Shown: in pieces, positions 14,825 through 61,900 of the stretch
Position numbering within the stretch: position 1 is the first letter of the stretch
How the letters are laid out: each line of letters begins with the position of its first letter
Source: Crambe crambe
Taxonomy: Eukaryota; Porifera; Demospongiae; Poecilosclerida; Crambeidae
Length of the DNA stretch: 64,000 nucleotides
Direction of reading: 5' to 3'
NCBI GenBank assembly: GCA_963924555.1
Contig: OZ004595.1
Coordinates: forward strand, 682,001 to 746,000
Position numbers and translations under genes: made by a program
Notes under the pieces: model-generated
Databases searched by the model: none
Seen by the model: only the letters and a program-made list of their open reading frames with translations
Told to the model about the DNA's origin: nothing

Positions 14825-17800
14825 ATGGCAGAGGGAAAATATAAACAGGTGAGCTGTAATGCATGCTCATCAGTAGGTTTAGAAATCCAGATGAAGAACT
14901 TGTTCACTACACGCATAGATGCCATTTATAAGGCTATGGCGCCTAAAATATTGGGGAGGACAGCTGCATTGGTCGGCTAATTCGCCTCAAAACTGCAGCT
15001 GTTTGTTTGTTATGTACAGCCTGTCCTGCTATTTATCAGTTGGCCAATTTATCTTTCTAGTAGAGATAGCAGTTAGCTAGGTCTGCAAGTTCTTTTACTT
15101 TAGACTTGACTGGTAGATAGTGTTACTGCTAGTTTATAGTTTGACTATCTAGATGTTTCCTCCCAATACAGGAACTTGAGGGAGAGCTTAAAACAGAATT
15201 GGCGGTAAGTTGTCATGAAAGTAGCTGCTGTGATGTTGTGTTGGTCCAGTGCCCTCTGGTCAGTCACTGCAGCACCTTAGGCCCATAGAAACAGTCTGTC
15301 AAAGATGAGGGGTGCTCGTATAAAGGGACAGGTTGCTTATTGGAATGCTGGACTACTCAACCTTAAAGCAGTTACCTCCAGCATGTGGGCCCCAATGTTT
15401 CGTACAGATTGTCAACACGCCTCAGCTTGTGTGCCTACTAGACCCCTGTTCATTTTTATAGGCCAAATGCTGACTCGGCATAATTCCTAGTGCCCCTCTG
15501 CCGAGGGAAGTGGGTAGAGTCTTGTTACTCACAGACACCAGGACAATATTGAGCACACTTTTTAATGAACATTCTCAACGTTTGGAGTGTACAGCTCAAA
15601 CACCTTGCATGCTAGACCCCTGCTCAATTTTTTACAAGCCGTTACCAACCCATTCAAGTGTGCCGAGGGAAATGGGCGGGGTCTAGTGACTCATGGATCC
15701 CATGACCTTATAGAGCAAGATGTGCTCTACAGGTTCTCCAAGTTTGGAGGCCGTAGCTCACATGCTGTGGGTGTGGTGATTTTTTTTTGTGGTGCATGAT
15801 GGCTGTCTTTGTGTGTTGGTTGTATGGTTGTCTCACCTTCTCTCTCTCACTCCTCACAGTTGAAGGCAAACCATCAGATTAACATAGAGGACTATGAACT
15901 GGTGAGTGATGAGTGTAGCAGTGGTGTGATGAGGGCGTGGCATGTGGCCCAGTCCATACATGGTGTGTATTCCATGTGTGCAGGGATTGTCTGCTGCTCA
16001 GAAGGAGCTCAGTCAGCCTTCCCTGAGTGAACTAAGGAGGTCTGAGCTTGAGGAGGAGGTGAAGCGTTGTGAAGGAATGATCCAGTTGAATAAAAAGCTT
16101 CTCCTTGGTAGAGAAGAAGCTATAAAGAAGCTACAAGATGCCCTGGGGCAACTTACTTGTAAGTATAAAGATTTAGCACTAATTAGATGATGTAATGATA
16201 CATTATACAAGTTAAGTAATAGCCCAGAGCTATAAAATAGTGTGCGCTCGGCTGGGAGGTGTAATTAGTAATAGATAAAGCATGTGCGCGAGGTTTCTGG
16301 TTGATTTAGTGCACCGTAGCCCGAGGGCCGCAGGCCCGAGGGATGGTGCACTAAATCAACCAGAAACCGAGTGCGCATGCTTTATCTATTTTAGATCCCA
16401 TTGCGCATGCGCGTAGCTACTGTAGTCCATAGTTACAAACATCAGTACTCTTTGGTTTGCTATAGCTAGCTAATTGTTGTGTCTCCACTTCTTTCTTGAG
16501 TTGTGAAATGGCGGCAAGAATAGTCCACGTACCTGCTGATGTTCCTGTTATAGCTATCTATAAATCGGGGATACTCCCCCGAGCACGAAGGATACAAGTA
16601 TTTTGTGCCTGCCCAGTCCGAAGATCAAAGAAGGCGGCGTGTGAAACACCAGCTTGCTGTAGACCAGCTAGAATGTTCCTTCTTTTATACTAGCTACTCT
16701 CAGAAAAGCTTGTTGGGTTTGAAATGTGGAATTTTAATGTTATTCATTGCCACGTTGCACGTTTATAATGACATAACGTTTCAAACCCAACAAGCTTTTC
16801 AGAGAGTATAGTAGCCAGCATAAAAGGCAGAACTTCAACAACTTCTTCAAGCTGTCTTGCAGCATTCAGCATAGCCTGGGGATGCAAAAAAATTAGTGCA
16901 CTCCTACAAAACTAGAGATGCTCGTATAGCATTAGTTGGGCGAGCAAGCAGCCAGTGGTCATTTCAATGTGCTCCTCCCTCACTTATGATTATATAGCCC
17001 CAACAGTGACTTTCGATATCTAGCTATTCAGGTTGTTAACTGACTTGGTGCATTCCCAGTTAGCATTAGAGTGTCTTCTCTGAACCCAGGCTACCACTCC
17101 TGTTCAGACTCAGTAGCTAGTCTCTCAAATAATGAGCCCTCATATGCTCTAATCTGGCAGCTCTGTGTTCTGCTGACTCTGCTCTCCTTCTGGCTCTCAT
17201 TTGCTCTGCTCTTGCAGCATTATCTTCTGCTGACTCTGTACATTCCCTCCTCCTGGCTCTATCTGTCGCATTTCTTTGCTAGTCTTGTTTTTCTCTGTTC
17301 CTTTGACTCTGTTCTCCTTCTAGCTCTATCTCTTTCATTTCTTTCATGAGGTCTCGCTCTTCTTTGCTGGTCAGTTTCTAGAGGGTGTTCTGGGGCCCTC
17401 CTTCGCTTGTTTTCTGGTTCTCTGGGTTCCATAATACTCGCTACAATATAGTGTTTTAACTTCAAGCTTAACGAAAAATTAATGATTGCTTATTATGACG
17501 TTGCTTAGTAGCTATTTCATGCGCATGCGTAAGCGCATGCGCATTTTGAGTGACGTACGTGTAACATATAAATATCGCAATTTTCCATTTTGACCAATTA
17601 GTGTGGGGCTTCGCTCGCTCGCCAATTAGTGCACTCCTACAGAATTAGTGCACACTTGCTGATTTAATGCACATAGCAACCACATAGCAACGGGATCTAA
17701 GTAATTAATAGTAACATGTATTAATTAATTAGTGACTAATTAAAAGTAGGTGAAATTAATAAATGTTTGAGTGGCCATAACTTTTGAAGGGAAAGTGCTA

Positions 17801-20800
17801 TAGTCTTGAAATAAGAACCATTCTGCTCAGAAAATTCTACTCTTTCTTTGTGTCACTACTAGCATTACCTAAGAGAGTGTTAGGGAGGTGGTAATCCATT
17901 TTGGCATGTATTTTATGACCTTATTATCATTTTATCAGCAGAATGTGACTGTTGTGATGTCTTGTAACACTTATTATAAACTGTTATGTAAATAATGTTC
18001 TTTTTTCCTCTTCAGCTGCTTCCCAGAAGCCTGACTCTTCTTCCCAGAAAGAAACACAGAGTGAGTATTGTAAGCCACAATAAGTGGTCCCATGTACACA
18101 TACAATGGTGTGCTTTAATTGAGGTTCTTAGGCAATAACATAATAATTTATTCAGTCAATGATTTACTTTACAGAATCAACATCAAGTGACTTGCGTCTA
18201 GATGATGCAACTAGAGAGAAAATGGTAAGTGTAATTAATGGAGGGGGTGTGTGTATGCAGATATCATTCATGTGGGGTGTGAACTCTATGATCGCTCTCC
18301 TGGTTTCTCTGATTCAGTTCAACCAGTCCATGACGTGGGGCCACGTTGAGGCAATCATCATCAAGGTCCTGATCGTGGGGGCTGCTGGAGTCGGCAAATC
18401 CCTTTTTTTGTCTCGTCTCCTTGGTGTCGCTATTTCTCTCATTCGAAACAGTACAGGAGTGGTCGAGAAAGCCCAGAGGGTCAACTGTCAAAGGTTGGGC
18501 ACAACAGATCACTTAAAGAACATAGTTTGGGAAGTGGTCGGACCGAAAGAACTGATGAAACTTCTTGCCGATGCCATAACCTCAGGAATTGAGAAGTTCA
18601 CTGCTTCTGTTTCCCCTCCACATGCATCTCGTCGTTCCAATAATGGATCAGGTTCTCATTCGACCAGTTTTGCTGATGCAAGCTACTCTACAGCTAGAAC
18701 TACCGTCCTTCAGCTGATAGGTCGTTCCAAGGAAGGTAAATTGCTGAAGATGACTTGGATCTATCTGATAGATAGTGGAGGGCAGCCTCAGTTCCACGAG
18801 CTTCTTACAGCATTCATCAGAAACACCACTTTAGGTATCTTTGTCTTCAGGCTCTCAGATCAGCTGGATGATAAGCCACGGATTGGATACTACAAAGGTG
18901 GAAAGCCACTGGGTGAGCCTTATCCTTTCCCCATGAGCCACAAGGAGATCTTCCAGCACTGTGTCCAGACCATTTCTTCCCTCCCTTCCACTTCTCCTCT
19001 GAAGGATCAGGCCCCAACTCGTCCAAAAATTCTCGTCTTGGGAACTCATCGAGACGAAGAGAGCAAGTGTTCCGAAACACGTGATGAAAAAGAGAAGATT
19101 CTCAGGGATATCTTGCATAAAGGGCCAAATCCTGACTCGGCCATCTCAGAAGATTTGATCTACTATGGAAATAGGTGCATCTTTCCTTTGAATGCTAAAT
19201 CACCTGAGAAGCAGGACGAGGAGATCATCGGTGATATTCGAGACAAAATAGTGCGTCTTGCACCTCAACCCCAATCCATCCCACTGCAGTATTACGCACT
19301 CGAACTGGAACTCGAAAAGAAAGAAGAGAGTGTGATTAGCTTCAAAGAATGTTTGGATATTGCCAAGCATTCCCTGCTTTTCGAAGAGACCGCGGCCAGA
19401 ACTGCCATCCATCATCTGGATAGCCTCAACCTCATCCAACACTTCCCAGAGTGTGCCGAAGAGGTCATATTCTGTGACCCCAACATCCTCCTCAACAAGG
19501 TGAACGAGCTGATAGAGAAAAGCTACAGCTTGAGAGGTTTAACCCCTACAAAACTTGAGGCAGATGTGGGAGGGGACTGGATTAGATTCCACATGCGTGG
19601 CAGGGTGACCTTACCCATGCTTAAAGAGTTTCCCGAAGGCTTCGTGCAAAATCTTTATGATCATCGCACTCTGGCCAAGATCTTTGAAGACCTGCTCATT
19701 TTCACTCGTTTTGAGCATGATGATAGCTTTTTCATGCCTGCCCTGCTCGATGTTAAAGATCTGAAGCTCATCCAGCGACCGACTAAGACGTGCCTAATCA
19801 TAGCGTTCTCCTCTGGGTATGCCCCCTTGGGACTTTTTTCTTCCTCCATTGCCTTTCTGACTTCGAGCAAAAATCGATGGCCTTCTCCATGGATATTCTT
19901 GTTCGAAAAAGGTCAACTCTTCCGAAATGTGATCAGCTTTGATATGAATACGGTAAAGGTCACTCTTATTGACTGCTCGGCTCATTTCGAGGTTCATGTG
20001 GAGCTGCAGGAAGGCATGCAAGAAGACCCGTCCATGATGCCCGAAGTGTGCAGAATCATACGCCAAGGGATCAAGGAGGCCATCAAGCAATCGATGAAGA
20101 AACGCCACATCTGTAGTGCATCGTATGGTGAGAGTTTCTTCTGCCCGTGTGACTCGTATGCTACCTACCACTTGGCCAGTGTGAAAGAAGTCTTTGGAAA
20201 GTATCGCAGGTGTTGTGATGTCCACACTGGAAAGGGTGGAGCTTTGGAAGAACATCACTACCAGTGGCTGGGAATAGAACCCTCTACACCATCAAAAGGT
20301 AGTAATACATTCTATTTAGCTAGTGGCCAAGGTACTGTAGGTGGCCGAGTCTTTGGTCACTCCAGCAGCTTGAACTACCTAGTGCATGCAGGCCTGTAAC
20401 TGGGTACGGTGAACCTGCCTTAAAGACCACCTGTATCCAGAGACCAACCTTCTATAAAGTGGTGTTCCCAAAGTATCATTTCGATTGATTTTGACCTCCA
20501 TATAGAGACCATCTTCCTATTAAGACCCACTTTTTTTTTGTGGCCCAGAGGTGATTGCTGTAGGCAGCTTCTCTGTATATAATTATTGATCTGATGCTCC
20601 ATCCCTTGTAGGATCAGTTAAGCTCCCAGATATCAAGTATTTCCACCTCCAACTCATAAAATGGATCAACCCAAATGGTGAGGAAGCAAAGCTGAAAATT
20701 TACGAAGAGATGTCATCAAAATGGAAGGAAGTTGCTGGAGTGATTGGTCTGAGTAAAGCTGAGATTGACAATATAGCTGCTCCAGGGATGGGACGTGAAA

Positions 20801-21587: not shown

Positions 21588-21589
21588 AA

Positions 21590-24678: not shown

Positions 24679-27600
24679 ATGGCAGAGGGAAAATCGAAAC
24701 AGGTGAGCTGTAATGCATGCTCATCAGTAGGTTTAGAAATCCAGATGAAGAACTTGTTCACTACACGCATAGATGCCATTTATAAGGTTATGGCGCCTAA
24801 AATATTGGGGAGGACAGCTGCATTGGTCGGCTAATTCGCCTCAAAACAGCAGCTGTTTGTTTGTTATGTACAGCCTGTCCTGCTATTTATCAGTTGGCCA
24901 ATTTATCTTTCTAGTAGAGATAGCAGTTAGCTAGGTCTGCAAGTTCTTGACTGGTAGATAGTGTTACTGCTAGTTTATAGTTTGACTATCTAGATGTTTC
25001 CTCCCAATACAGGAACTCGAGGAAGAGCTTCAGGATGCATTGTTTGTAAGTTGTCATGAAAGTAGCTGCTGTGAGGTTGTGTTGGTCCAGTGCCCTCTGG
25101 TCAGTCACTGCAAAGCACCTTAGGCCCATAGAAACAGTCTGTCAAAGATGAGGGGTGCTCGTATGCAGGGACAGGTTGCTTATTGGAATGCTGGACTACT
25201 CAACCTTAAAGCAGTTACCTCCAGCATGTGGGCCCCAATGTTTCGTACAGATTGTCAACACGCCTCAGCTTGTGTGCCTACTAGACCCCTGTCCATTTTT
25301 ATAGGCCAAATGCTTACTCGGCATAATTCCTAGTGCCCCTCTGCCGAGGGAAGTGGGTGGAGTCTTGTGACTCACAGACCCCAGGACAATATTGAGCACA
25401 CTTTTTAATGAACATTCCCCACGTTTGGAGTGTACAGCTCAAACACCTTGCATGCTAGACCCCTGCTCAATTTTTTACAAGCCGTTACCAACCCATTCAA
25501 GTGTACCGAGGGAAATGGGCGGGGTCTAATGACTCATGGACCCCATGACCTTATAGAGCAAGATGTGCTCTACAGGTTCTCCAAGTTTGGAGGCCGTAGC
25601 TCACATGCTGTGGGTGTGGTGATTTTTTTTTGTGGTGCATGATGGCTGTCTTTGTGTGTTGGTTGTATGGTTGTCTCACCTTCTCTCTCTCACTCCTCAC
25701 AGATGAAGGCATACTATCAGAGGGTGTTAGAGTATGATGAACAGGTGAGTGATGAGTGTAGCAGTGGTGTGATGAGGGCGTGGCATGTGGCCCAGTCCAT
25801 ACCTGGTGTGTATTCCATGTGTGCAGAGATTGTCTGCTGCTCAGAAGGAGCTCAGTCAGCCTTCCCTGAGTGAAGCAAGGCAGTCTGAGCTTGAGAAGGA
25901 GGTGAAGTATTGTGAGGGACGGATCCAGAAATGGAAAAAGTTTCTCCTTGCTAGAGAAGAAGAAATAAAGAAGCTACAAGATGCCCTGGGGCAACTTACT
26001 TGTAAGTATAAAGATTTAGCACTAATTAGATGATGTAATGATACATTATACAAGTTAAGTAATAGCCCAGAGCTATAAAATAGTGTGCGCTCAGCTGGGA
26101 GGTGTAATTAGTAATTAATAGCATAGATATAAGATGTTTACGGGATTGGAAACGGATCACGTGCTCTCGTTAGCAACTAACAACCGAGGCGCGTTGACAG
26201 CTGAATGACATAGCACTTTTGTCAAAGTTGCTGTTCTGACAAGATCCATGAGGTAAGACTTATGCCAATGATACTATAATACACTAGGGCATAGATTTAC
26301 TGTATGAAATTAATTTTAGCTCAGATTTTCAAGTTTAATCCTACAAATACTACTGTAGTGGTTAATGGGACTATAATCCCTCTCACGCTTGATAGAATCA
26401 ATCGCTGTTGCCCATTTTCTGATCAAAAGGCATGTAAACGTTAGCTACATAGAATAGTAATGTTAGTTTTTGTATTAGCTGACATATATTGTCTCTAACA
26501 TTTGCAAGTGGTGTTAAAACTGTAATCCCTCTCCCAAGAAATAGATCAACAATATTGCAACTGTATTAGTTATTTCAGGGAAAGGATAGAACAGTAAATG
26601 GAATTGGTGCATTCGTTTTCTATACAATAGTCATCCTATGGAGATGGCAAGCTTACTATATACCCCCCCTAATATCCATAGGGTCCACAGGACAGCTGAC
26701 TGAGCCGAATTCTTGAGGTGGATGGTGTCAAAATCCAACAGCCAAAAGCTGGAAATATTGCAATAATGCTGATGAGGGAGAACTGAGCAGAAACTGGCGG
26801 ATAACTTTGGGGCAAAATTATCTAGCTATAATAATGATGAATTTATGTCTAATTTTAATACCAAAAGTCATTTTGGCCTTTCTTTCAAATCAATCACATA
26901 AAATTAATGTATAATGAGCAATGATAGGTACTCATAGTTATAATTACAAGGAAAAAAGTTATAAATAATTAATAACTTCCTTCCTCAGACTCTCCAACTT
27001 CAACTCTCTGACTCTTCACTTCTTCAATACCTTCCCCTTAGCTTACTTGTACTATTCTGTGAGCTGTAGGGGCAGAACATCACTTTAACTGCCTTGAAAG
27101 GAGTGAATATTGATCTCCTTTCACGGCCATTAATATAATTAATGCTGCATGCGCGTGCGCATCTGTCAACGCGCCTCGGTTGTGCAGTTCATTGTGCGTT
27201 TCCAATCCCGTAAAACCTCTTATATCTATGTTAATAGTAACATGTAAGAATTAATTAGTGACTAATTAAAAGTAGGTGAAATTAATAAATGTTTGAGTGG
27301 CCATAACTTTTGAAGGGAAAGTGCTATAGTCTTGAAATAAGAACCATTCTGCTCAGAAAATTCTACTCTTTCTTTGTATCACTACTAGCATTACCTAAGA
27401 GAGTGTTAGGGAGGTGGTAATCCATTTTGGCATGTATTTTACGACCTTATTATAATTTTATCAGCAGAATGTGACTGTTGTGATGTCTTGTAACACTTAT
27501 TATAAACTGTTATGTAAATAATGTTCTGTTCCCCTCTTCAGCTGCTTCCCAGAAGCCTGACTCTTCTTCCCAGAAAGAAACACAGAGTGAGTATTGTAAG

Positions 27601-29875
27601 CCACAATAAGTGGTCCCATTGACAGCAATGTACACATACAATGGTGTGCTTTAATTGAGGTTCTTAGGCAATAACATAATTTATTCAGTCAATGATTTAC
27701 TTTACAGAATCAACATCAAGTGACTTGCGTCTAGATGATGCAACTAGAGAGAAAATGGTACGTGTAATTAATGGAGAGGGTGTGTGTATGCAGATATCAT
27801 TCATGTGGGGTGTGAACTCTATGATCGCTCTCCTGGTTTCTCTGATTCAGTTCGACCAGTCCATGACGTGGGGCCACGTTGAGGCAATCATCATCAAGGT
27901 CCTGATCGTGGGGGCTGCTGGAGTCGGCAAATCCCTTTTTTTGTCTCGTCTCCTTGGTGTCGCTATTTCTCTCATCCGAAACAGTACCGGAGTGGTCGAG
28001 AAAGCCCAGAGGGTCAACTGTCAAAGGTTGGGCACAACAGATCACTTAAAGAACATAGTTTGGGAAGTGGTCGGACCGAAAGAACTGATGAAACTTCTTG
28101 CCGATGCCATAACCTCAGGAATTGAGAAGTTCACTGCTTCTGTTTCCCCTCCACGTGCATCTCGTCGTTCCAATAATGGATCAGGTTCTCATTCGACCAG
28201 TTCTGCTGATGCAAGCTACTCTACAGCTAGAACTACCGTCCTTCAGCTGATAGGTCGTTCCAAGGAAGGTAAATTGCTGAAGATGACTTGGATCTATCTG
28301 ATAGATAGTGGAGGGCAGCCTCAGTTCCACGAGCTTCTTACAGCATTCATCAGAAACACCACTTTAGGTATCTTTGTCTTCAGACTCTCAGATCGGCTGG
28401 ACGATAAGCCACGGATTGAATACTACAAAGGTGGAAAGCCACTGGGTGAGCCTTATCCTTTCCCCATGAGCCACAAGGAGATCTTCCAGCATTGTGTCCA
28501 GACCATTTCTTCCCTCCCTTCCACTTCTCCTCTGAAGGATCAGGCCCCAACTCGTCCAAAAATTCTCGTCTTGGGAACTCATCGAGACGAAGAGAGCAAG
28601 TGTTCCGAAACACGTGATGAAAAAGAGAAGATTCTCAGGGATATCTTGCATAAAGGGCCAAATCCTGACTCGGCCATCTCAGAAGATTTGATCTACTATG
28701 GAAATAGGTGCATCTTTCCTTTGAATGCTAAATCACCTGAGGAGCAGGACGAGGAGATCATCGGTGATATTCGAGACAAAATAGTGCGTCTTGCACCTCA
28801 ACCCCAATCCATCCCACTGCAGTATTACGCACTCGAACTGGAACTCGAAAAGAAAGAAGAGAGTGTGATTAGCTTCAAAGAATGTTTGGATATTGCCAAG
28901 CATTCCCTGCTTTTCGAAGAGACTGCGGCCAGAACTGCCATCCATCATCTGGATAGCCTCAACCTCATCCAACACTTCCCAGAGTGTGCCGAAGAGGTCA
29001 TATTCTGTGACCCCAACATCCTCCTCAACAAGGTGAACGAGCTGATAGAGAAAAGCTACAGCTTGAGAGGTTTAACCCCTACAAAACTTGAGGCAGATGT
29101 GGGAGGGGACTGGATTAGATTCCACATGCGTGGCAGGGTGACCTTACCCATGCTTAAAGAGTTTCCCGAAGGCTTCGTGCAAAATCTTTACGATCATCGC
29201 ACTTTGGCCAAGATCTTTGAAGACCTGCTCATCTTGACTCGTTTTGAGCATGATGATAGCTTTTTCATGCCTGCCCTGCTCGATGTTAAAGATCTGAAGC
29301 TCATCCAGCGACCGACCAAGACGTGCTTGATCATAGCGTTCTCCTCTGGGTATGCCCCCTTGGGACTTTTTTCTTCCTCCATTGCCTTTCTGACTTCGAG
29401 CAATAATCGATGCCCTTCTCCATGGATGTTCTTGTTCGAAAAAGGTCAACTCTTCCGAAATGTGATCAGCTTCAATGTGGAATCAGTGGTGGTCACTCTT
29501 ATTGACCGCTCCAGTCACTTTGAGGTTCATGTGCAACTGCAGGGAAGCATGCAAGAAGACCCATCCATGATGCCCGAAGTGTGCAGAATCGTACGACAAG
29601 GAATCAAGGTGGCTATTGATCAATCGATGAAGAAACGCCACATCTGTTGTGCATCGTACAGTGAGAGTTTCTTCTGCCCGTGTGACTCGTACGCTACCTA
29701 CCACTTGGCCAGTGTGAAGAAAACATTTGGCAAGAAATATCATAGGTGTTGTGAAGTCCACACTGGGAATAATGGAGCTTTGGAGGAACATCACTACCAG
29801 TGGCTGGGAATAGAACTCTCTACACCATCAAAAGGTAGGAATCACCCCTATGGTAGATTGCTTATACCAAGTCAC

Positions 29876-29908
<33 letters not shown>

Positions 29909-30404
29909 AACAGCTATCCAAAGTTCTCTAGGACCACCTGACCATTTTGAAACCTCAAGATTACTTAAAGCTTTGAGCAACGATGAGTTGATAGAGTTGG
30001 GGACAGCTCTTGGATTATCCTTCAGCAATTTGAAAAGGATGACAATGCTTCTTGGAGATATGATTCAGGCATGGTTAAATGGTGACGATGACGTCACTAC
30101 TAGAAGTGGTCCTCCCAGCTGGTCCAGTCTGGCCACAGCTCTTGAAAGAACTGGTCACACAGCTATTGCCTCCAAAGTCAGGAAAGGTGAGCAGTCAAAA
30201 TCAATGAGATTACAAACATTGATCTGCTTCTATTTTATAGAAAAGCTCGGTCAAGTCCTCACTACTCCTTCACTTCCAAGACCTACACCAGCAGGTGAGC
30301 AGTTTAACACAGAGTGTGTAATATCATACTGGTACATGGTACTGTTAATGAATGCAGGTCCTTCTGTCAACCCTTTACCTGATGAGGTGGACAGTATACT
30401 CTAA
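24679..30404 (+). CDS. Unit 3: coiled-coil Roc-COR-Death protein (class A), complete
   Basis: Exons: 24679..24702, 25013..25045, 25703..25744, 25827..26001, 27542..27586, 27708..27757, 27851..29834, 29914..30186, 30241..30294 and 30358..30404. All joins are in phase, giving 908 residues, and this is the reference model for the array. Residues 1-91 are the coiled coil (MAEGKSKQ start) and 92-123 a Ser/Gln-rich linker. The P-loop GAAGVGKS is at about 144-151, DSGGQ at about 275 and THRD at about 366-369. COR-like sequence starts near 443, with a Cys/His-rich end near 710-785. The Death domain spans about 785-876 (LIELGTALGLSFSNLKRMTM, IQAWLNGDD, SWSSLATALERTGH). The THRD form of the G4 motif is typical of Roc domains. 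The intron between exons 4 and 5 holds a 1.1-kb inverted-repeat element. Expected role is cytosolic signalling by GTP-controlled assembly and Death-domain contacts; the partner is unknown. Confidence 0.9.
26122..27230. mobile_element. 1109-bp inverted-repeat transposon in unit 3 intron, 7-bp target duplication
   Basis: The ends are CATAGATATAAGA and its complement TCTTATATCTATG. Imperfect inversion continues through TTTACGGGATTGGAAACG, and a further inverted segment is ACAACCGAGGCGCGTTGACA. Direct repeats TTAATAG flank it at 26115..26121 and 27231..27237. Units 4, 5 and 6 have the empty site with a single TTAATAG, which proves insertion. It has no substantial open frame, so it is non-autonomous. 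The superfamily is not assigned. Confidence 0.85.

Positions 30405-43401: not shown

Positions 43402-43404
<3 letters not shown>

Positions 43405-43466
<62 letters not shown>
43405..43466. repeat. (TC)n microsatellite in a catenin intron
   Basis: About 30 CT repeats immediately after the GTACTG donor at 43396. Frames across it are artefacts. Confidence 0.95.
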
Positions 43467-43467
<1 letters not shown>

Positions 43468-44871: not shown

Positions 44872-44879
44872 TCATCATC

Positions 44880-44910
<31 letters not shown>
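44872..44910 (+). repeat. His-Gln trinucleotide repeat in catenin exon
   Basis: CAT/CAC codons followed by about ten CAA codons give HHHH and a poly-Gln run in the C-terminal tail. This is a likely length polymorphism. Confidence 0.85.
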
Positions 44911-44912
<2 letters not shown>

Positions 44913-45061
44913 CCCCTGCCTTGATTGAACCCAGTTACCAAAGTGTTCCTGCTGCTTCCTCTCAACACAACCAATCCCCTCCCATGATAGAACCCAATTA
45001 TGCCAGCGTCCCCACCACTTCCCCTGACCCCACCCCCTCCACCACAAACCCCCCAGCACCA

Positions 45062-45270
45062 ACTATAATATACCAGGTATTTATAATAGTATACCAGGCA
45101 TGTATAATAGTAAACTATAATATACCAGGTATTTATTATTATACCAGGCATGTATAATAGTAAACTATAATATACCAGGTATTTATAATAGTATACCAGG
45201 CATGTATAATAGTAAACTATAATATACCAGGTATGTGTAATAGTATAGGTATGTATGTTAGTATACCAGG
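45062..45270. repeat. Minisatellite (ATACCAGGTATTTATAAT-type) over a splice donor
   Basis: About five imperfect units containing TATACCAGG and AGTAAACTATAA. The catenin exon ends inside the first unit at CCAG/GTATTT, and later units repeat the same donor-like string. Confidence 0.8.
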
Positions 45271-45609
45271 CACTTGGGACCCAGCCTTTTGCCCTTTGTA
45301 GAGAAGTTGTCCTCTTTAGAGGTGGTAAAGGTACGAGAGTCTGTCCTCTTTCAGAGTGGGAGACTGGGACAGTGTGTGGTGCTTCAAAATCTCACCCTGT
45401 TCAGTTGGATTTTATTTTCTTACTTGCTGCAGTCTATTAATGACCCTGACATGAAGTCAGGGGTGCAAGCGAGTGCCACTACAGTGGAGACATCTGCCAT
45501 AGCCTCCACCACCAGTGGACCAGTGTCAGTCACTTCTCTGGAGGAGGAGGTGGAGCCTGACCCCAATGCCACTTACGCTTGTGTAAGTATAATTATGTGC
45601 AGTGACTCC

Positions 45610-46413: not shown

Positions 46414-49400
46414 ATGGGTGAAGGAAGATCTAAACAGGTGAACTGTAATGCATGCTCATCAGTAGGTCTAGAAATCCAGATGAAGAACTTGTTCACTGAT
46501 GCCATTAAGTATCAGGCTATGGCGCCTAAAATATTGGGGAGGACAGCTGCATTGGTCGGCTAATTCGCCTCAAAACAGCAGCTGTTTGTTTGTTATGTAC
46601 AGCCTGTCCTGCTATTTATCAGTTGGCCAATTTATCTTTCTAGTAGAGATAGCAGTTAGCTAGGTCTGCAAGTTCTTTTAGACTTGACTGGTAGATAGTG
46701 TTACTGCTAGTTTATAGTTTGACTATCTAGATGTTTCCTCCCTCTACAGAAACTCGAGGGAAAGCTTTATTTTGCATTGAAGGTGAGTTGTCATGAAAGT
46801 AGCTGCTGTGATGTTGTGTTGGTCCAGTGCCCTCTGGTCAGTCACTGCAAAGCACCTTAGGCCCATAGAAACAGTCTGTCAAAGATGAGGGGTGCTCGTA
46901 TGCAGGGACAGGTTGCTTATTGGAATGCTGGACTACTCAACCTTAAAGCAGTTACCTCCAGCATGTGGGGCCTAATATTTCGTACAGATTGTCAACACGC
47001 CTCAGCTTGTGTGCCTGCTAGACCCCTGTCCATTTTTATAGGCCAAATGCTGACTCGGCATAATTCTAGTCTTGTGACTCACAGACACCAGGACAATATT
47101 GAGCACACTTTTTAATGAACATTCTCAACATTTGGAGTGTGCAGCTCAAACACCTTGCATGCTAGACCTCTGCTCAATTTTTTACAAGCCGTTACCAACC
47201 CATTCAAGTGTGCCGAGGGAAATGGGCGGGGTCTAGTGACTCATGGACCCCATGACCTTATAGAGCATGATGTGCTCTACGGGTTCTCCAAGTTCGGAGG
47301 CTGTAGCTCGCATGCTGTGGGTGTGGTGATTTTTTTTTGTGGTGCATGATGGCTGTCTTTGTGTGTTGGTTGTATGGTTGTCTCACCTTCTCTCTCTCAC
47401 TCCTCACAGTTGAAGGCATTGAAGCAGAGTGAGATAAAGAACTGGGAACAGGTGAGTGATGAGTGTAGCAGTGGTATGATGAGGGCGTGGCATGTGGCCC
47501 AGTCCATACCTGGTGTGTATTCCATGTGTGCAGAAATTGTCTGCTGCTCAGAAGAAGCTCAGTCATCCTTCCCTGAGAAAAGGAAGGAAATCTCAGCTTG
47601 AGAAGAAGGTGAAGGATTGTGAGGAAGAGATCCAGGGATGTAAAGAGTATATCCTTGGTAGAAAAGAAGAAATAAAGAAGCTTCGGGATGCCCTGGGGCA
47701 ACTTACTTGTAAGTATAAAGATTTAGCAACTAATTAGATGATGTAATGATACATTATACAAGTTAAGTAATAGCCCAGAGCTATAAAATAGTGTGCGCTC
47801 AGCTGGGAGGTGTAATTAGTAATTAATAGTAACATGTAAGAATTAATTAGTGACTAATTAAAAGTAGGTGAAATTAATAAATGTTTGAGTGGCCATAACT
47901 TTTGAAGGGAAAGTGCTATAGTCTTGAAATAAGAACCATTCTGCTCAGAAAATTCTACTCTTTCTTTGTGTCACTACTAGCATTACCTAAGAGAGTGTTA
48001 GGGAGGTGGTAATCCATTTTGGCATGTATTTTATTATCATTTTATCAGCAGAATGTGACTGTTGTGATGTCTTGTAACACTTATTATAAACTGTTATGTA
48101 AATAATAATTTTTTCCCCTCTTCAGCTGCTTCCCAGAAGCCTGATTCTTCTTCCCAGAAAGAAACCCAGAGTGAGTATTGTAATTAAGCTGCAATAAGCG
48201 GTCCCATTTGGACATACAATGGTGCGCTTTAATTGAGGTTCTTGGCCAATTAAATAATATTACCATTATACCAGCATTACCCAGAGCTATATAAAATAGT
48301 GCTGGGTGGTAAGTGATTAGTGACTAATTAAAAGTAGATGAAATTAACTTTTGAAGGGAAAGTGCTATAGGCAGAGAATTTTACTCTTTCTTTGCTAGCC
48401 CATTCCATTCCACTGAATAAAGACACCCTGCTGAACTGGAACTTCAGTTTGTTATTACTACAACTAGCAGTGCAAACATTAATAATTATAGCTAGCTATG
48501 TGCTTATTGCATGATTAGCAATACTCTCAGTGATTATGAAGCTATGTCCATTAATATAGCTATCTATAATTTTAATGTTCATGGGCTATGATTGCTCTAT
48601 AAATCTCACTTTCCAACTGTGATTTAAATTGTTATGTGCACAGATGATATGTCCCGAGGTAATACACAACACACGGAAGCTTATTATAAAGCCATCAAAG
48701 ATAAAATTACATTGATGATAAAGGTGGTTAGGCTCGTTCATGCTGGCATTCCTCGATCAGGAAAGTCAACTACGATAAAACGCTTGGTGGGAGATATTTT
48801 GAATATTTTAGACATTTCACCTAGTACTGGAGTTGGCAAGCAAGAAGGTCAGATTATTGTCACAAGAAAGATGAATTCCGATATGGTAGCAATTGGAAAA
48901 TCATCTGAGTGGTCCAGACTGAAGGGCTTCATAAAAGAAGATAGCTTGCTCAAACAACTACTAAAGACAAAAAAGAAGTCAGATCAAGAAAATCAGTCAG
49001 CTGCTTCTGCTTCAGTAAAGGCGTCTTCACGACATGTACATAACGAAGCAACAAGAGAGGAAATACACGAGCTAATGTCACTTTCTTCTGTGGGTACCAA
49101 GGATCCAGCTGAAGTCGAGGATCTGGAGGAACTCGAAAATCTGCTGAGTAATTTGCTTGTGCTTTTGATCAATACTGACACTGGTGGCCAGTCTGAATTC
49201 CTGGATATGCTGTGTGCTCTCATCATGGGTCCTTCCCTTTACCTTCTCTACCATAACCTAATTGATCCACTGGACAAACCTTTTGATACTTATTTTGCTG
49301 ATGATAAAGGTAATCCAACTGAAAAAGTAAAATCTACTGATACAGTAGAGGAATGCTTATTCCGAATTCTCTCGAGCATTGATTGCTTTAGTAAGCCTAA

Positions 49401-52400
49401 AGAGGAATCTACTATTCAGAAAGATCCAAAGTATTTTATTCGTTCCAAGGCCATTTTTGTTGGGACACACCGAGATAAGGTGAAGAGTGATAAAGAACTT
49501 TTTAAAAAGCAAAATTATCTTAAGAAAAAAGTTGAGAAATTGGGTGTGTGTACAGAAGGCACTCTTCTCTTCCTCCCTAATGGCGAGCCTATTTTGGCGG
49601 TGGATAACTTCAAAGGAAATGACGATGAGAGAAAAGATATGAAAGATACTTTTACAGATTTAATTAATCGTCACTTTGATGAGATCCCCATTCCGGCAGC
49701 ATGGCTAATTCTGAGTCTCTACATGCGCAAGGATCTACAAGCTAATCGTATAATGTCTTTGAAAGATTGTGAAGAGCAAGCAATGAAACTTGAAATGGAC
49801 TCCGAAGAATTAAAAACAGCTCTTTGGTTCTTGCATCACTGCTTGGGGCTGATCTTATATTATCCTGAAGTGAACGAGATCAAGAATAAAATTTTCTGTG
49901 ATGTGCAGGTTGTTTATGACAGCATTACACAATTGGTTGTGCACACGTTTACAACAAAAAGTGGTCAACATGGTATAACAAAGAATTTCCGAGAAAAAGG
50001 GATGTTTTCAGATCATGATTTGGAGTGTGCAATGAGATGTGGTGATAGCAAACCTGATCTACTCCCATTACATGAATTAGTAGCACTTCTCAAGCACCTT
50101 AAGATTTTGGCAGTAATACCTGACGAAGAAAGTCAAAAAGGGAAAACATACTTCATGCCATGTGTCCTGAATAATGCTACAGGTGATGAATTAAAGAGCA
50201 TGTTGAAGACAGTCAAGGAATCGAAGGACAATCCTGCTCCTCTGATGCTTCAATACGATTGTGGCTATGTGCCTGTGGGGATATTTCCTCACATGATTGC
50301 TGACATTGCCTCTCGGTGGAAATTGGCTGAAGATAAAGTTATCAGGAAGAATATGATCCAATTTTCTGTTGGTGAAAACGAAGTCATCTTCACGTCATGT
50401 CCCTCAAATATTACAGTTGCACTTTCACGAGATCGCATTTGTAAAACTTCAAATGAACAGATATGTCCAGACATACGTGGAGAGATTGTGTCTTCTTTGA
50501 AGAATGTAGCCAAATGCATGAATTACAAGTTTGATATGAAGTATAAATTTGGCTTCAAGTGCAATCATAACGACCTCTGGACACGGTTTTGTAATTTTGC
50601 TCAAAGTTTACTCTTCCACCCTCCAAAAGGTCACCTCTGTTTGTATAAGAGAAATCATGTGCATGGAAATCACGTGCAATGTCAGTCTGACTATCATAAA
50701 GATAATCTCACAGAGTCTCAACGGGTTTGGTTTCCTAAGGTGAGCTTAGTATTACCATGAGAATAAATAAAGTTATTATAATTTTGTTTACTTTAGCAGT
50801 GCAAAGATGGTCCAATTGCTGTTGGTGAGTGATTACTGCAGTAGAGGAACAACCCATTGTTTGGATTGTAAAAAGGTCACCTACAGCAGACCACATGATA
50901 ATAGCCTATCAGCAACTGTCTGGTCCAGTTTACATAATGAGATAAGGTTGTGTACTAACCTTTGAGTATAATCCTGCCCTCCACAGTCCAGAATAATTGT
51001 TTAGTGTTAGTGATACATGTACTCACAATACATCTTGCAAGGTTGCTGTAATTAACAATACACCCTTGATAGTACTTCTATTTTACAAGCAGGAATTGCA
51101 CAGCCTGCCACTCAAACATCTAATCGAGGTTAGTCACTACAGTATAGTCAGCCTCACTGCATTATGGTAACATCATCATCTAGGCTGGTTCTGGTGGACT
51201 GTAATTGCATTACTAGCCATTCTCTTTGCCCTCTCTTGTAAGTTATGCCATGGATGGCCTTATCTGCTAATAATATTAATAATTCTTTAGACATTGTACC
51301 ATCCAGTAAAGGTGAGTTTACTGTGTTTGTATGTTTCCTCACTGTATTCAGGACCATCAGGTTCATGAATACTATCACTCCCTTAATGTGTTCACTATTG
51401 ACTCCTGTATAGAGCAAACCTCTGTTGATCTGGGAAGGAGTGATGCAACTACTCAACTAGGTGAGTATAGTACATTACAATCCCTTCCTCATGCAGTTGG
51501 ACAGAAATGATGTTTGACAATATCTATAACTAATGCCCCTTGGCTTTATCCATTGTAAAGCCTATAGTGGTGAATATTACATACAAGTCCCTTATCTGAT
51601 CACAATGTGACTGTGTTTTAGGGTGCATTAATAAACCTGCTTGCAATGCTGTGCCTGGTCCTTCGGACTCTGTGAAGAAAGAAGCTTGGAAGACTGAGAA
51701 GCAAGCTTCAAAGGCAGGGGAAGAAACTGAGAGGGTTATTGCATCATTTGAAGGTTGGTGAAGAAAGGCTCTCTAATGATAGCTACGTATATGAGTTAAA
51801 TTTGGCAGTGTATTAAATTTGACGGTTTGGCGGTCTGTCTTGGAACTGCCAATAATAATGTCTGCCGATATCTATAGCTAGGTTATAGGGTCTGGGGGTT
51901 GGACTTGAGTGTATCAATGAGTTGCGCACAAGACTATAGTAGCTAGCTAGCTAGCTAGTTCAGTTTCCAGCTGTTTTGCGATTGTGATGGCTCTTCAAAT
52001 ATACTTGAAGAAGGAAGAAGTGAGCAGGCAGCTGACATCAATTTGGCAAACTACATATAAGTTGCCATCTGATATTACTGCAACAGCATATGGGTCCTCC
52101 GAGTTTCCTTCTTCCCTTGACAGCTGAATAACTACTTTTGGATTTCAGGTAGCTTTGTATATGTAATAGCCTTGAACACAACTAGTCAAGTGAAACTCCC
52201 TGGCTTGCTTGGCGCTCGACCAATGGCACGCGCATGCGGTGGGTAATAATGCAATAATGATGTCTGCCAAAAGCCTTCCATGGTAAAAACACCAAATAAA
52301 ACTCCTTGGTACTCACACTTGAAACAAAACTAACAAACAAAAGAAGAAGAAGAAAAAAAAAAGAATGACTATTCCTCCATTAAGTTTTGTACATGTAGCC

Positions 52401-56091: not shown

Positions 56092-56185
56092 AGGGACCTA
56101 AGGGACCCCTTTTCCATTACCATTAGCCACAGTATACTCACTGCATGGTGCTGTGGATAATTATTGTGGTTTAAATGAAAGAGCC

Positions 56186-57010
56186 ACATGGTAACATATT
56201 TTGAGCCAGAGAAAGACTACATGTAGCTGTATAGACAAGAACAGAATTATGAAGCTAAGCTACAGTTGATCTAGTTGTTATTTGGGTGTGGTTTGGTCAA
56301 AAGTCAGCCAAAAATTTTAGGGCTGGAGCTAGCTATTTTATAGTGGTACAGCTTGCGACCACACAGTGGCACATAGCTACTGTGCAAAGTGCACCATTTA
56401 GGCCCAGAAAATTTTTTTCTATTTTAGGTGTCTCAGATCCAATCTGGTGCAATCTGGAGCATCAAATTTATCCAACTGAACTTGGATAAACTATCAGTTT
56501 CATCTGTGTGAATGTGCAGCACCATTAGGTTATTCAAAGCATTTGACTCACTGTAGTTCTCAGGTAAGGACAATCCATACATTTGAGAATGCTAGTCTCT
56601 GAGTGATACAACTTTATTATATTATCATGAGCTTTAAATAGTGCCAAAATTTATAAATCACATTGTGCACCCACCCATGGTTCACCATGCTTTCTTAAAT
56701 CAGCTAGGCTATAGAATTACAACTTCATTACTCTAATCAGTGAGTGGGTGGATGAATACCACAATTGTAATGGAGTAATGAAGTGTGAAATTGAAATTCC
56801 TGTAAGTTACATGTAGTGTTCATCCATCCACTAATTAATTAGTTGGTGATAAATCTTTTAAGTGGGAGAGGATGTGGTATGAATAATTCACACATCTGAT
56901 GAGTGAACACTTGCTAACACCTAAAACTAATACTGTTGAATATCAGACCGAGCCATATGACAATATGCTGCTTATGAATAATTTGAGAGGGACCCAATTC
57001 ATCCCTGTCC
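56186..57010. repeat. Segmental duplicate 'R4', copy 1
   Basis: Nearly identical to 63238..64000 (window end). No exon was found. The shared block starts CACATGGTAACATATTTTGAG. Confidence 0.85.
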
Positions 57011-58603: not shown

Positions 58604-58731
58604 CATGGCACTGAATTAAGTCAGCCTATTATTCTAATTACCAGGGACCTACTCTGACTTAAAATGCTGCCATTTAATGTGAATACTTATATTGGCATGG
58701 AATTAAGTCACTGACTTAATTCAGTGCCATG
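58604..58731. mobile_element. 128-bp MITE with 20-bp terminal inverted repeats, copy 3
   Basis: It starts CATGGCACTGAATTAAGTCA and ends with the exact complement. It is the best-preserved of the three copies in the window. Confidence 0.75.
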
Positions 58732-58964
58732 TATACTCGTGGCATGTTTGACTTAGCTAAATCAACGCCATGAGTGACTCAAGGCATGGATGACTTAATT
58801 CAATGCCATGAGTAACTCAAAGCATTTATGTAGGCTGTAAATTATCTTACCTGGATCTCAATCACATGATCCTAACACTCCTTAAAATCTGCCACGCCCT
58901 TATTTTGTTCTTGAACAATCTTCTTTTTCAGAGCTATATCGTATCTCTTAGCGGCTGTTGTGGT

Positions 58965-61900
58965 ATGGCAGAGGGAAAATCGAAACAGGTGAGCTGTAAT
59001 GCATGCTCATCAGTAGGTTTAGAAATCCAGATGAAGAACTTGTTCACTACACGCATAGATGCCATTTATAAGGCTATGGCGCCTAAAATATTGGGGAGGA
59101 CAGCTGCATTGGTCGGCTAATTCGCCTCAAAACAGCAGCTGTTTGTTTGTTATGTACAGCCTGTCCTGCTATTTATCAGTTGGCCAATTTATCTTTCTAG
59201 TAGAGATAGCAGTTAGCTAGGTCTGCAAGTTCTTTTAGACTTGACTGGTAGATAGTGTTACTGCTAGTTTATAGTTTGACTATCTAGATGTTTCCTCCCT
59301 CTACAGAAACTCGAGAGAGAGCTTAAGATAGAATTGGAGGTGAGTTGTCATGAAAGTAGCTGCTGTGATGTTGTGTTGATCCAGTGCCCTCTGGTCAGTC
59401 ACTGCAAAGCACCTTAGGCCCATAGAAACAGTCTGTCAAAGATGAGGGGTGCTCGTATGCAGGGACGGGTTGCTTATTGGAATGCTGGACTACTCAACCT
59501 TAAAGCAGTTACCTCCAGCATGTGGGCCCCAATGTTTCGTACAGATTGTCAACACACCTCAGCTTGTGTGCCTACTAGACCCCTGTCCATTTTTATAGGC
59601 CAAATGCTGACTCGGCATAATTCCTAGTGCCCCTCTGCCGAAGGAAGTGGGTGGAGTCTAGTGACTCACAGACCCCAGGACAATATTGAGCACACTTTTT
59701 AATGAACATTCTCAACGTTTGGAGTGTGCAGCTCAAACACCTTGCATGCTAGACCCCTGCTCAATTTTTTACAAGCCGTTACCAACCCATTCAAGTGTGC
59801 CGAGGGAAATGGGCGGGGTCTAGTGACTCATGGACCCCATGACCTTATAGAGCATGATGTGCTCTACAGGTTCTCCAAGTTTGGAGGCCGTAGCTCGCAT
59901 GCTGTGGGTGTGGTGATTTTTTTTTGTGGTGCATGATGGCTGTCTTTGTGTGTTGGTTGTATGGTTGTCTCACCTTCTCTCTCTCACTCCTCACAGGACA
60001 AGGCATGGTATCAGAGTCTCAAAAGGTACAATGAACAGGTGAGTGATGAGTGTAGCAGTGGTGTGATGAGGGCGTGGCATGTGGCCCAGTCCATACCTGG
60101 TGTGTATTCCATGTGTGCAGAGATTGTCTGCTGCTCAGAAGGAGCTCAGTCAGCCTTCCCTGAGTGAATCTAGGAAATCTCAGCTTGAGGAGGAGGTGAA
60201 GTATTGTGAGGGAGAGATCCAGGGATGGAAAAAGATTCTCCTTACTAAAGAAGAAGAAATAAAGGAGCTGCAAGATGCCCTGGGGCAACTTACTTGTAAG
60301 TATAAAGATTTAACACTAATTAGATGATGTAATGATACATTATACAAGTTAAGTAATAGCCCAGAGCTATAAAATAGTGTGCGCTCAGCTGGGAGGTGTA
60401 ATTAGTAATTAATAGTAACATGTAAGAATTAATTAGTGACTAATTAAAAGTAGGTGAAATTAATAAATGTTTGAGTGGCCATAACTTTTGAAGGGAAAGT
60501 GCTATAGTCTCGAAATAAGAACCATTCTGCTCAGAAAATTCTACTCTTTCTTTGTGTCACTACTAGCATTACCTAAGAGAGTGTTAGGGAGGTGGTAATC
60601 CATTTTGGCATGTATTTTATTACCTTATTATCATTTTATCAGCAGAATGTGACTGTTGTGATGTCTTGTAACACTTATTATAAACTGTTATGTAAATAAT
60701 GTTCTTTTCCCCTCTTCAGCTGCTTCCCAGAAGCCTGACTCTTCTTCCCAGAAAGGAACACAGAGTGAGTATTATAATTAAGCCACAATAGAGGTATTTA
60801 CACCCTCCCCACATACAATGATGTGCTTTAATTGAGGTTCTGGGCCAATTAAATAACTTATGGTATTCAGTCAATGATTTACCTTACAGAACTGGCATCA
60901 AGTGGCTCACATCTAGATGATGCAACTAGAGAGAAAATGGTAAGTGTAATGGAAGAGGGGTGTGTGTATGCATTCATGTAGGGTGTGAACTCTATGATTG
61001 CTCTCCTGATTTCTCTGATTCAGTTCAACCAGTCCATGACGTGGGGCCATGTTGAGGCAATCATCATCAAGGTCCTGATAGTGGGGGCTGCTGGAGTCGG
61101 CAAATCCCTTTTTTTGTCTCGTCTCCTTGGTGTCGCTATTTCTCTCATCCGAAACAGTACAGGAGTGGTCGAGAAAGCCCAGAGGGTCAACTGTCAAAGG
61201 TTGGGCACAACAGATCACTTAAAGAACATAGTTTGGGAAGTGGTCGGACCGAAAGAACTGATGAAACTTCTTGCCGATGCCATAACCTCAGGAATTGAGA
61301 AGTTCACTGCTTCTGTTTCCCCTCCACATGCATCTCGTCGTTCCAATAATGGATCAGGTTCTCATTCGACCAGTTCTGCTGATGCAAGCTACTCTACAGC
61401 TAGAACTACCGTCCTTCAACTGATTGGTCGTTCCAAGGAAGGTAAATTGCTGAAGATGACTTGGATCTATCTGATAGATAGTGGAGGGCAGCCTCAGTTC
61501 CACGAGCTTCTTACAGCATTCATCAGAAACACCACTTTAGGTATCTTTGTCTTTAGGCTCTCAGATCGGCTGGACGATAAGCCACGGATTGAATACTACA
61601 AAGATGGAAAGCCACTGGGTGAGCCTTATCCTTTCCCCATGAGCCACAAGGAGATCTTCCAGCACTGTGTCCAGACCATTTCTTCCCTCCCTTCCACTTC
61701 TCCTCTGAAGGATCAGGCCCCAACTCGTCCGAAAATTCTCGTCTTGGGAACCCATCGAGACGAAGAGAGCAAGTGTTCCGAAACACGTGATGAAAAAGAG
61801 AAGATTCTCAGGGATATCTTGCATAAAGGGCCAAATCCTGACTCGGCCATCTCAGAAGATTTGATCTACTATGGAAATAGGTGCATCTTTCCTTTGAATG

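Follow-up and report, generated by a model that had tools for sequence, protein, structure and literature searches.

A candidate receptor-like Roco repertoire in the sponge Crambe crambe, with hypervariable codons for a predicted helix face in micro-exons set between nearly invariant intron arms

We analyzed a 64,000-bp window of the sponge Crambe crambe genome (contig OZ004595.1, positions 682,001 to 746,000; G000:C18:682001-746000 in our notation) and surveyed the 143 Mb, 119 contigs of the single assembly to which it belongs. The window carries parts of six tandem genes (units 1-6), with units 1 and 6 truncated by the window edges. A complete unit runs from four small exons (exons 1-4) through linker exons, read in unit 4, to a long exon encoding the Roc and COR domains of Roco proteins. 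Selected codons of exons 2-4 are hypervariable between copies, while the introns next to exon 3 hardly vary. We favor, with a probability of roughly 0.6, the reading that these genes form a receptor-like Roco recognition repertoire produced by extreme diversifying selection together with short-tract gene conversion. Exon borders were placed from splice signals and alignments, on sequence only, and are listed in Table 1.

A preliminary description of this locus claimed that the exons diverge faster than the adjacent introns. We reproduced its counts for units 2-6, in which 14 of 33 sites vary in exon 2, 23 of 42 in exon 3, and 2 of 82 in intron 3, and also its exon-3 starts (Table 1) and the five different codons at position 8 of exon 3 (AAC, GTG, AGG, GAG, and CTC). 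Exon 4 varies at 41 of 175 sites across the same units. In 30 copies on contig C18, exons 2 and 3 had a nucleotide diversity (pi) of 0.27 and ~0.24, respectively, and mid exon 4 one of 0.15. The corresponding values were 0.0033 for the final 80 bp of intron 2, 0.0047 for intron 3, and 0.0057 for the next 106 bp, which lie in intron 4 (the exon-2 borders are one base off in these pi values and in the codon-state tables). Other non-coding DNA was noisier, with pi of 0.10 in intron 1, 0.08 in the first 80 bp of intron 2, 0.36 upstream of exon 1, and 0.12 in intron 4 past 16273; these parts are indel-rich, and two copies are broken there. Across 74 copies on five contigs, exon 3 differs at ~25% of sites between copies, with 71 distinct sequences, and its contrast with the introns is present in every group. 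Exon divergence no higher than intron divergence, the outcome that would have told against the claim, did not occur in these 74 copies. Assembly error is an unlikely source of the contrast, as exon 3 is 42 nt long in 72 of the 74 copies and there are no stops among 483 hypervariable codon states. The invariance of the introns, which the preliminary description missed, is a finding in its own right. Both length exceptions are in frame: L069 on C16 has a 60-nt exon 3 with a six-codon insertion, and L060 on C8 has one of 36 nt.

The family numbers at least 77 copies on five contigs (C8, C15, C16, C17, and C18), and DNA was read for 74 of them. A 601-base query against the genome gave 41 matches (40 of 87 candidates scored), 8 on C17 and 33 rows on C18, one of the latter being a 100-base piece directly upstream of another copy. 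With up to three mismatches allowed, a 58-base piece of intron 3 matched 72 places, of which 62 were exact and 10 had one mismatch (C8, 16; C15, 2; C16, 10; C17, 14; C18, 30), and its reversed control matched none in the genome. Under the same limit, a 40-base piece of the intron-2 tail matched 76 places, 69 of them exactly and the other 7 with a single mismatch. All 76 are cassettes, that is, exon 3 between its intron arms, which rules out a dispersed repeat carrying the left arm. The total of at least 77 adds the divergent C18 copies L039 and L040 and three places common to the intron-2-tail search and a search with the exon-3 framework pattern. Two other loci were seen along the way. L083 (G000:C15:6583000-6591000) is a 47/59-bp minisatellite of ~80 units, of low diversity, from an exon-3-like unit with a different flank, and G000:C11:1.6-3.6 Mb holds more Roc-COR frames, 35-37% identical to the query, that look like another array (61 of 539 candidates scored).

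Next, we compared the cassette between contigs. The invariant block around exon 3 spans 15781-15983 in unit 2 coordinates and has a T tract at its left edge. Few variants occur within it; differences specific to a contig are found at the right end (15962-15969) and immediately outside the left edge (15779-15780). The arms, 79 bp before exon 3 and the first 58 bp after it, are almost unvarying on all five contigs; their 137 bp show 17 variant states, 13 being transitions (L039 and L040 were aligned with gaps). Between contigs, leaving aside C8 and C15, which are close, divergence is 0-0.4% over the final 80 bp of intron 2 and 1.6-3.5% over intron 3, compared with ~9-69% for intron 2 by segment, 30-54% for exon 4 over most of its length, and 21-52% for intron 4. 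Three arrays with exon 4s this far apart still show similar variable positions. Exon 3 itself diverges by 0.24-0.33, alike within and between contigs (0.247 versus 0.256; p 0.06 from 300 permutations). Its codons show little linkage disequilibrium, with three of 28 tested pairs at p ≤0.05 and a smallest p of 0.012. No RNA structure was detected in the unit-2 cassette (z +1.76).

Nearly identical genes can carry very different exons. L046 and L043, in tandem on C17, have no differences in 2,046 bp of Roc-COR, 4/543 upstream, 3/677 in intron 2, 1/82 in intron 3, 4/1,048 between exon 4 and Roc-COR, and 0/237 behind Roc-COR, for a total of 12/4,633 outside exons 2-4 (gaps not counted). Exons 2, 3, and 4 of the same pair differ at 10/39, 12/42, and 17/175 sites, or 39/256. 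All six pairs among L042, L043, L046, and L048 show 0-2 Roc-COR differences in 2,046 bp and 9-13 of 42 in exon 3. Likewise, L051 and L056 do not differ at any of 852 intron sites, but do at 7/42 sites in exon 3, 16/175 in exon 4, and 5/27 in the readable part of exon 2. L045 and L048 are alike upstream (0/585), in exon 2 (0/39), intron 2 (1/679), and intron 3 (0/82), and apart in exon 3 (12/42), exon 4 (14/175), and Roc-COR (120/2,041). Over 729 within-group pairs (pairs with fewer than 400 aligned flank bases were excluded), exon-3 differences are flat against intron divergence, with means of 8.4 to 11.0 of 42 in nine bins. Over the same pairs, exon-4 differences climb from 12.3 to 22.0 and exon-2 differences from 3.3 to ~15.8, although the last exon-2 bins probably include badly aligned copies. 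L039 and L040 differ at 3/698 intron sites and at just 2/253 exon sites. Some close copies therefore lack an exon excess, and any programmed process would not always be on.

Cassettes are also shared between genes that are otherwise different. L049 and L059 have identical exon 3s and arms and differ at 15/175 sites in exon 4 and 6/27 in the readable part of exon 2. L079 and L080 have exons 3 and 4 in common and differ at 7/39 sites in exon 2 and 10/577 in intron 2. L027 on C18 and L070 on C16 differ at 2/42 sites in exon 3 and at 0/79 and 1/82 in the flanking arm and intron, while elsewhere they are 36-54% apart (95/175 in exon 4, 201/559 in the body of intron 2). In these three cases, units of the repertoire have been exchanged between loci, once between contigs. 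A run test on exon 4 detected block sharing by mean run on C18 (0/300 permutations) and C8 (p 0.023). Pairwise distances in exons 2, 3, and 4 are nearly uncorrelated (seven Mantel tests, r -0.05 to 0.19, one p of 0.043; L014, L036, L039, and L040 and the C8 exon 2s were left out). The near-identity of the block on five contigs, the divergence of the other introns, and the movement of cassettes between loci and contigs together indicate that gene conversion is part of the explanation.

We then fitted a star-tree codon model to the 69 distinct 42-nt exon 3s, with seven codons as the variable set (Table 1). Omega at these codons was 227 with kappa 2 and 335 with kappa 4, and an omega of 1 was worse by 98 and 133 log units; with kappa free, kappa was 1.7 and omega 231. 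As a star tree treats shared codons as independent, these omegas are upper values. The neutral distance derived from the synonymous behavior of the variable codons themselves is ~0.003, comparable in magnitude to the arms. Counting base states alone sets a floor that recombination does not affect, namely 18-fold, from 2.24 extra states at each variable-codon site and 0.124 at each arm site; a count of codon alleles, 87 extra at 7 codons over about 16 replacement sites, gives about 44-fold. Synonymous sites were assessed in exon 3, the introns, and exon 4 of C18, C17, and C8. Synonymous change per site in the exon-3 framework is 0.001 on C18, 0 on C17, 0 on C16, and 0.043 on C8, and minority synonymous states account for 12 of the 966 codon states of exon 3. 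Codon 3 ends in A in 74/74 copies although the adjoining codon 4 is saturated, and third bases are often fixed where first and second bases vary. These quiet framework sites argue against blanket local hypermutation of the exons, which we reject. None of the 483 hypervariable codon states in the 69 sequences is a stop (24.8 would be expected if codon positions were independent) and none is proline; Tyr (89), Arg (60), and Trp (58) make up 43%. In exon 4, omega is 16, 27, and 26 and kappa 2.5, 3.4, and 2.8 on C18, C17, and C8, respectively. This kappa is near the intron value, with transition:transversion counts of 123:72, 35:15, and 31:13 for introns of the same contigs. On C18, much of the exon-4 synonymous variation falls in two codons at its end, one for Leu and one for Gln (window 16131-16136). 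The excess of replacements is confined to the hairpin: in contrast to exons 2-4, the Roc-COR control is shown to be under purifying selection (pN/pS 0.18-0.40 in six pairs of units 1, 2, 3, and 6); pairs involving units 4 or 5 are near saturation (0.53-0.73).

The variable residues follow a helical rhythm. Amino-acid entropy across exons 2 and 3 has a best period of 3.65 residues on C18 (any-period p < 0.001, 1,000 permutations), 3.70 on C17 (p 0.008; alpha band 0.002), and 3.65 on C8 (p 0.069; alpha band 0.009), the C8 signal coming mainly from exon 3. For exon 4, any-period p values are 0.003, 0.064, and 0.036 and alpha-band p values <0.001, 0.002, and 0.004 (C18, C17, C8). AlphaFold modeling of exon 4 alone (5 rows) gives a helix at 2-9, a QPSLS turn, and a helix at 16-57, with a predicted local distance difference test score (pLDDT) of 95.8 and a predicted template modeling score (pTM) of 0.67. 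From the periodicity, exons 2-3 probably extend helix 1. There is thus good support for placing the variable residues along a single helix face within a predicted two-helix hairpin, and the Leu, Ala, and Ile residues on the constant face suggest that the variable face is exposed. The preliminary description had proposed diversifying selection, or a targeted diversification process, on exposed positions of a coiled coil. Selection on one helix face is borne out by omega and by the periodicity, with exposure likely on the grounds just given. The coiled coil is better termed a predicted helical hairpin ahead of a Roc-COR GTPase. A targeted process, unlikely but well short of negligible, is not needed: at synonymous sites, the framework of exon 3 is roughly as quiet as the introns are, and the mutation spectrum of exon 4 is near theirs.

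The unit 2 Roc-COR frame gave a model with pLDDT 77 and pTM 0.79. A Foldseek search with this model shows that the best PDB matches are LRRK2, LRRK1, and the Roco protein of C. tepidum (best E 2.7e-14), with fold matches to the RocCOR tandem 3dpu and the COR 3dpt. The frame contains the P-loop GAAGVGKS; PF08477 scores 25 bits against a cut-off of 27, in three of the six units, and PF16095 (COR) is found in all six at E values of 2.8e-5 to 9.5e-5, under the curated cut-off. By these models, the hairpin is followed by an LRRK-like Roc-COR GTPase with the hallmarks of a Roco protein, a Roc GTPase with a P-loop and a COR after it. No NACHT or NB-ARC match was obtained in ten frames at E 0.01, and the NTPase is Roc by fold; Pfam found no LRR or kinase domain in the frames scanned. 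A Death-like segment lies behind Roc-COR in unit 2 (PF00531, E 0.0028, below the cut-off), and the corresponding segments of units 3, 4, and 5 gave no Pfam match. Among the 120 listed of 472 relatives of the Roc-COR exon, one is from the sponge Ephydatia muelleri, at 29% identity over 64%, and the best match is 96% identical.

Together, these results suggest the following model. In tandemly expanded Roco proteins, an N-terminal two-helix hairpin would be joined by a short linker to a Roc-COR switch, which in unit 2 at least is followed by a Death-like C-terminus. The recognition surface would be a single hairpin face, made up of ~10 residues from exons 2-3 plus more from exon 4, and may bind something variable, be it a microbe, a symbiont, or another individual, with Roc-COR and Death presumably relaying the signal. 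Ordinary point mutations that alter this surface would be raised by very strong diversifying selection, so that the replacement excess would come from selection and not from a dedicated mutator. Short-tract conversion would copy exon-sized cassettes between loci, including between contigs, and keep the introns and the exon-3 framework near-identical. The genes would thus amount to a combinatorial library in which different binding faces share one scaffold and one switch. We take the exon-3 variation to be young from its young arms and quiet framework synonyms, and to be filtered at the protein from the near-ordinary kappa of exon 4 and the lack of stops; cassettes common to otherwise different genes indicate that pieces move. 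These three points lead to extreme diversifying selection with short-tract conversion.

Several observations weigh against this reading. The star-tree omega ignores recombination, and to our knowledge an omega this large exceeds any reported case. Kappa in exon 3 is lower than in the introns, the exon-3 framework itself fits an omega of 3.5-4.4, and codon 11, unlike most other codons, has a fitted third-base replacement rate of 0 compared with 330 for the first two bases. The exon-4 framework has pS of 0.047, 0.019, and 0.039 on C18, C17, and C8, above the 0.005, 0.002, and 0.007 of intron 4, largely from one Leu codon at 16131 with four synonyms besides the commonest. As for conversion, the exon-4 mean-run test was not significant on C17 (p 0.22), the maximum run was significant in no set, exon 3 showed no run excess (p 0.67), and identical exon 3s amount to three pairs in 74 copies, where frequent conversion predicts more. 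It is uncomfortable that the size of omega, the scarcity of identical exon 3s, and the clockless exon 3 would be explained more directly by a programmed process.

Such a process, targeted diversification in germline or soma, would rewrite chosen codons of exons 2-4 with the arms as recognition or homology sequences, in the manner of a diversity-generating retroelement (DGR). We consider it unlikely, though well short of negligible. It would fit the tandem genes with identical 2,046-bp Roc-COR frames and differences concentrated in exons 2-4 (39/256 inside, 12/4,633 outside), the flat exon-3 differences over the 729 pairs, the near linkage equilibrium of exon-3 codons, the fixed third bases beside varying first and second ones, and the nearly invariant 79- and 58-bp arms with a T tract at the left edge. 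However, no template or donor appeared among the 100 listed of 154 framework-pattern places, which comprise cassettes, the low-diversity C15 minisatellite, and three one-mismatch places (the remaining 54 have one mismatch each); a donor library elsewhere was rejected on the same search, as the minisatellite has near-identical units. There is no single-base signature, the variable sites having site-specific sets of bases, and exon-4 kappa is near the intron value. The untouched synonymous sites of the exon-3 framework mean that the process would have to respect codons. Furthermore, exon-2 and exon-4 differences do climb with intron divergence, and L039 and L040 differ at only 2/253 exon sites beside 3/698 in introns. 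We also hold it unlikely that the conserved intron arms mark micro-exon cassettes for a programmed, codon-precise system, one that would copy them from contig to contig and rewrite selected codons to yield a germline or even somatic library of helical binding faces on Roc-COR proteins.

Exon variants might instead be old and balanced and the introns young, with conversion homogenizing introns and halting at diverged exons. Equal exon-3 diversity within and between contigs (0.247, 0.256) is what an old shared pool would give, and introns are homogenized within arrays. Old variants should nevertheless have accumulated synonymous differences, and with 12/966 minority synonymous states and the third base of codon 3 always A, this reading is quite improbable. 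Hardly better is the idea that the arms are constrained, for splicing of a 42-nt exon or another RNA or regulatory role, while ordinary positive selection diversifies the exons of old duplicates. Conservation between contigs is limited to the exon-3 arms and does not extend to the introns around exons 2 and 4, and a micro-exon may need intronic enhancers. However, the arms tolerate change (17 variant states in 137 bp), the unit-2 cassette has no RNA structure, and constraint leaves unexplained the identical Roc-COR frames, the near-identical tandem introns, and an exon 3 common to two contigs; we rate it very improbable. An artefact of assembly, pseudogenes, or misread exons is more remote still. 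The data come from a single assembly and L014 and L036 (C18) are broken in their exon 1-2 regions, but 74 copies carry exon 3 between the same arms, 72 of them at 42 nt and without stops, with similar variable positions in three arrays.

In line with conversion, the 5' regions of units 4 and 5 are 92-94% identical in DNA to that of unit 2, yet their Roc-COR frames share just 23-25% protein identity with it (Table 1). On C17, exon 2 of L042, L043, L045, L046, L048, L079, and L080 is 39 nt long, with two extra codons at its start, compared with 33 nt on C18, where stops occur in 2 of 31 exon 2s. On the minus strand of two units (37112-37573 and 47261-47722), an antisense frame of 154 codons stays open from exon 4 through intron 3 and exon 3 into the intron-2 tail, and it is shorter in two others; we put it aside, as inspection by eye revealed no codon rhythm among the arm variants. 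A stretch of ~1.4 kb with an inverted repeat (window 16273-17700), in intron 4 of unit 2, is absent at the matching place in unit 4 and is probably a mobile-element insertion. Additionally, an Armadillo-repeat gene (PF00514 in one exon) lies within the Roco array between units 4 and 5 (window 42881-45400), and a 763-bp stretch is duplicated at 99.5% identity (window 56183-56945 and 63239-64000). Rfam and tRNA scans of the window gave no matches.

Table 1. Coordinates of Roco unit features in the 64,000-bp window
Feature	Position	Strand	Remarks
Unit 1 Roc-COR exon	3..1451	+	truncated by window edge
Unit 2 exon 1	14825..14848	+	start codon, MAEGKYKQ; from alignments and splice signals only
Unit 2 exon 2	15172..15204	+	33 nt, phase 0; hypervariable codons on helix stripe
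Unit 2 intron 2 invariant tail	15781..15859	+	left arm of exon-3 cassette; nearly identical on five contigs
Unit 2 exon 3	15860..15901	+	42 nt, phase 0; hypervariable codons 1, 4, 5, 7, 8, 11, 12; framework codons 2, 3, 6, 9, 10, 13, 14
Unit 2 intron 3	15902..15983	+	82 bp; first 58 bp are right arm of cassette, nearly invariant genome-wide
Unit 2 exon 4	15984..16158	+	175 nt; predicted helix 1 end and QPSLS turn, then helix 2, which carries the second variable stripe
Unit 2 Roc-COR exon	18147..20396	+	open frame; true exon start internal
Unit 2 Death-like C-terminal segment	20590..21024	+	PF00531 E 0.0028, under curated cut-off
Unit 3 exon 2	25013..25045	+	
Unit 3 intron 2 invariant tail	25624..25702	+	
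Unit 3 exon 3	25703..25744	+	
Unit 3 intron 3	25745..25826	+	
Unit 3 exon 4	25827..26001	+	
Unit 3 Roc-COR exon	27680..29938	+	open frame
Unit 4 exon 2	36575..36607	+	
Unit 4 intron 2 invariant tail	37182..37260	+	
Unit 4 exon 3	37261..37302	+	
Unit 4 intron 3	37303..37384	+	
Unit 4 exon 4	37385..37559	+	
Unit 4 Roc-COR exon	38363..40474	+	open frame; 25% protein identity to unit 2
Unit 5 exon 2	46750..46782	+	
Unit 5 intron 2 invariant tail	47331..47409	+	
Unit 5 exon 3	47410..47451	+	
Unit 5 intron 3	47452..47533	+	
Unit 5 exon 4	47534..47708	+	
Unit 5 Roc-COR exon	48628..50757	+	open frame; 42% identity to unit 4, 23% to unit 2
Unit 6 exon 2	59307..59339	+	
Unit 6 intron 2 invariant tail	59918..59996	+	
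Unit 6 exon 3	59997..60038	+	
Unit 6 intron 3	60039..60120	+	
Unit 6 exon 4	60121..60295	+	
Unit 6 Roc-COR exon	60982..63102	+	open frame; 99% protein identity to unit 2

If selection alone is at work, it would be among the strongest site-specific diversifying selection that we know of, with the adjoining intron as a built-in neutral clock. If a dedicated process were true, an early-branching animal would own a repertoire generator. Either way, the genes are candidates for a recognition system that uses a helical hairpin and a Roco switch in place of Ig, LRR, or NACHT domains, and they allow tests of how an animal lacking antibodies distinguishes microbes, symbionts, and other individuals.

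We found no Roco repertoires or hypervariable micro-exons in sponges in the open PubMed Central literature, the scope of our search as opposed to subscription papers and preprints, and such a family goes unmentioned in the sections consulted on TRADD-N expansions and on sponge NLRs. The LRRK and other Roco proteins share the Roc-COR fold; here, it comes with an N-terminal hypervariable hairpin and in tandem arrays. The comparisons below draw on sections of the cited papers. Bacterial DGRs acting on antigen sensors also target variation to putative conflict-system sensors (PMC10907252), but the variation here is not adenine-only or otherwise base-specific and had no template among the 100 listed of 154 places. 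The HYP effectors of cyst nematodes, for which editing of a hypervariable domain (HVD) is proposed, likewise have a hypervariable part in a conserved gene, with an order that prompted a programmed-process proposal; they are single loci with reordered motifs and proposed somatic editing, whereas we see many loci with substitutions at fixed codons (PMC11228951). In snake venom accelerated segment switch in exons to alter targeting (ASSET), exon segments are replaced and surface residues change by a mechanism called unclear, but whole segments of venom proteins are switched instead of single helix-face codons in an invariant framework (PMC2711939). The sea urchin 185/333 genes are also a large, linked invertebrate family with extreme exon diversity and proposed conversion or recombination, and some gene sets have an intron as conserved as the exons. 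However, they are mosaics of element presence and absence with introns overall more diverse than exons, and the sections cited describe neither a helix-face pattern nor shared arms (PMC1988830). Closest in logic are the Podospora NACHT/WD-repeat incompatibility genes (het-d, het-e, NWD), in which the WD repeat is exchanged, four codons are positively selected, and repeat-induced point mutation (RIP) is a possible mutator (PMC1805685). Both systems combine a switch protein with a repertoire domain, a near-identical framework maintained by exchange, few selected codons, and combinatorial variants. Positive selection on surface codons is found here as well, with omega well above 1 and a helix-face periodicity on a presumably exposed face. 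In contrast to NWD, the unit in this animal is an exon together with intron on both sides and belongs to a helical hairpin attached to Roc-COR, and the introns act as a clock. The repertoire logic is therefore already known from the fungal NWD genes, while 185/333, ASSET, HYP, and DGR share features with the sponge genes, not their anatomy.

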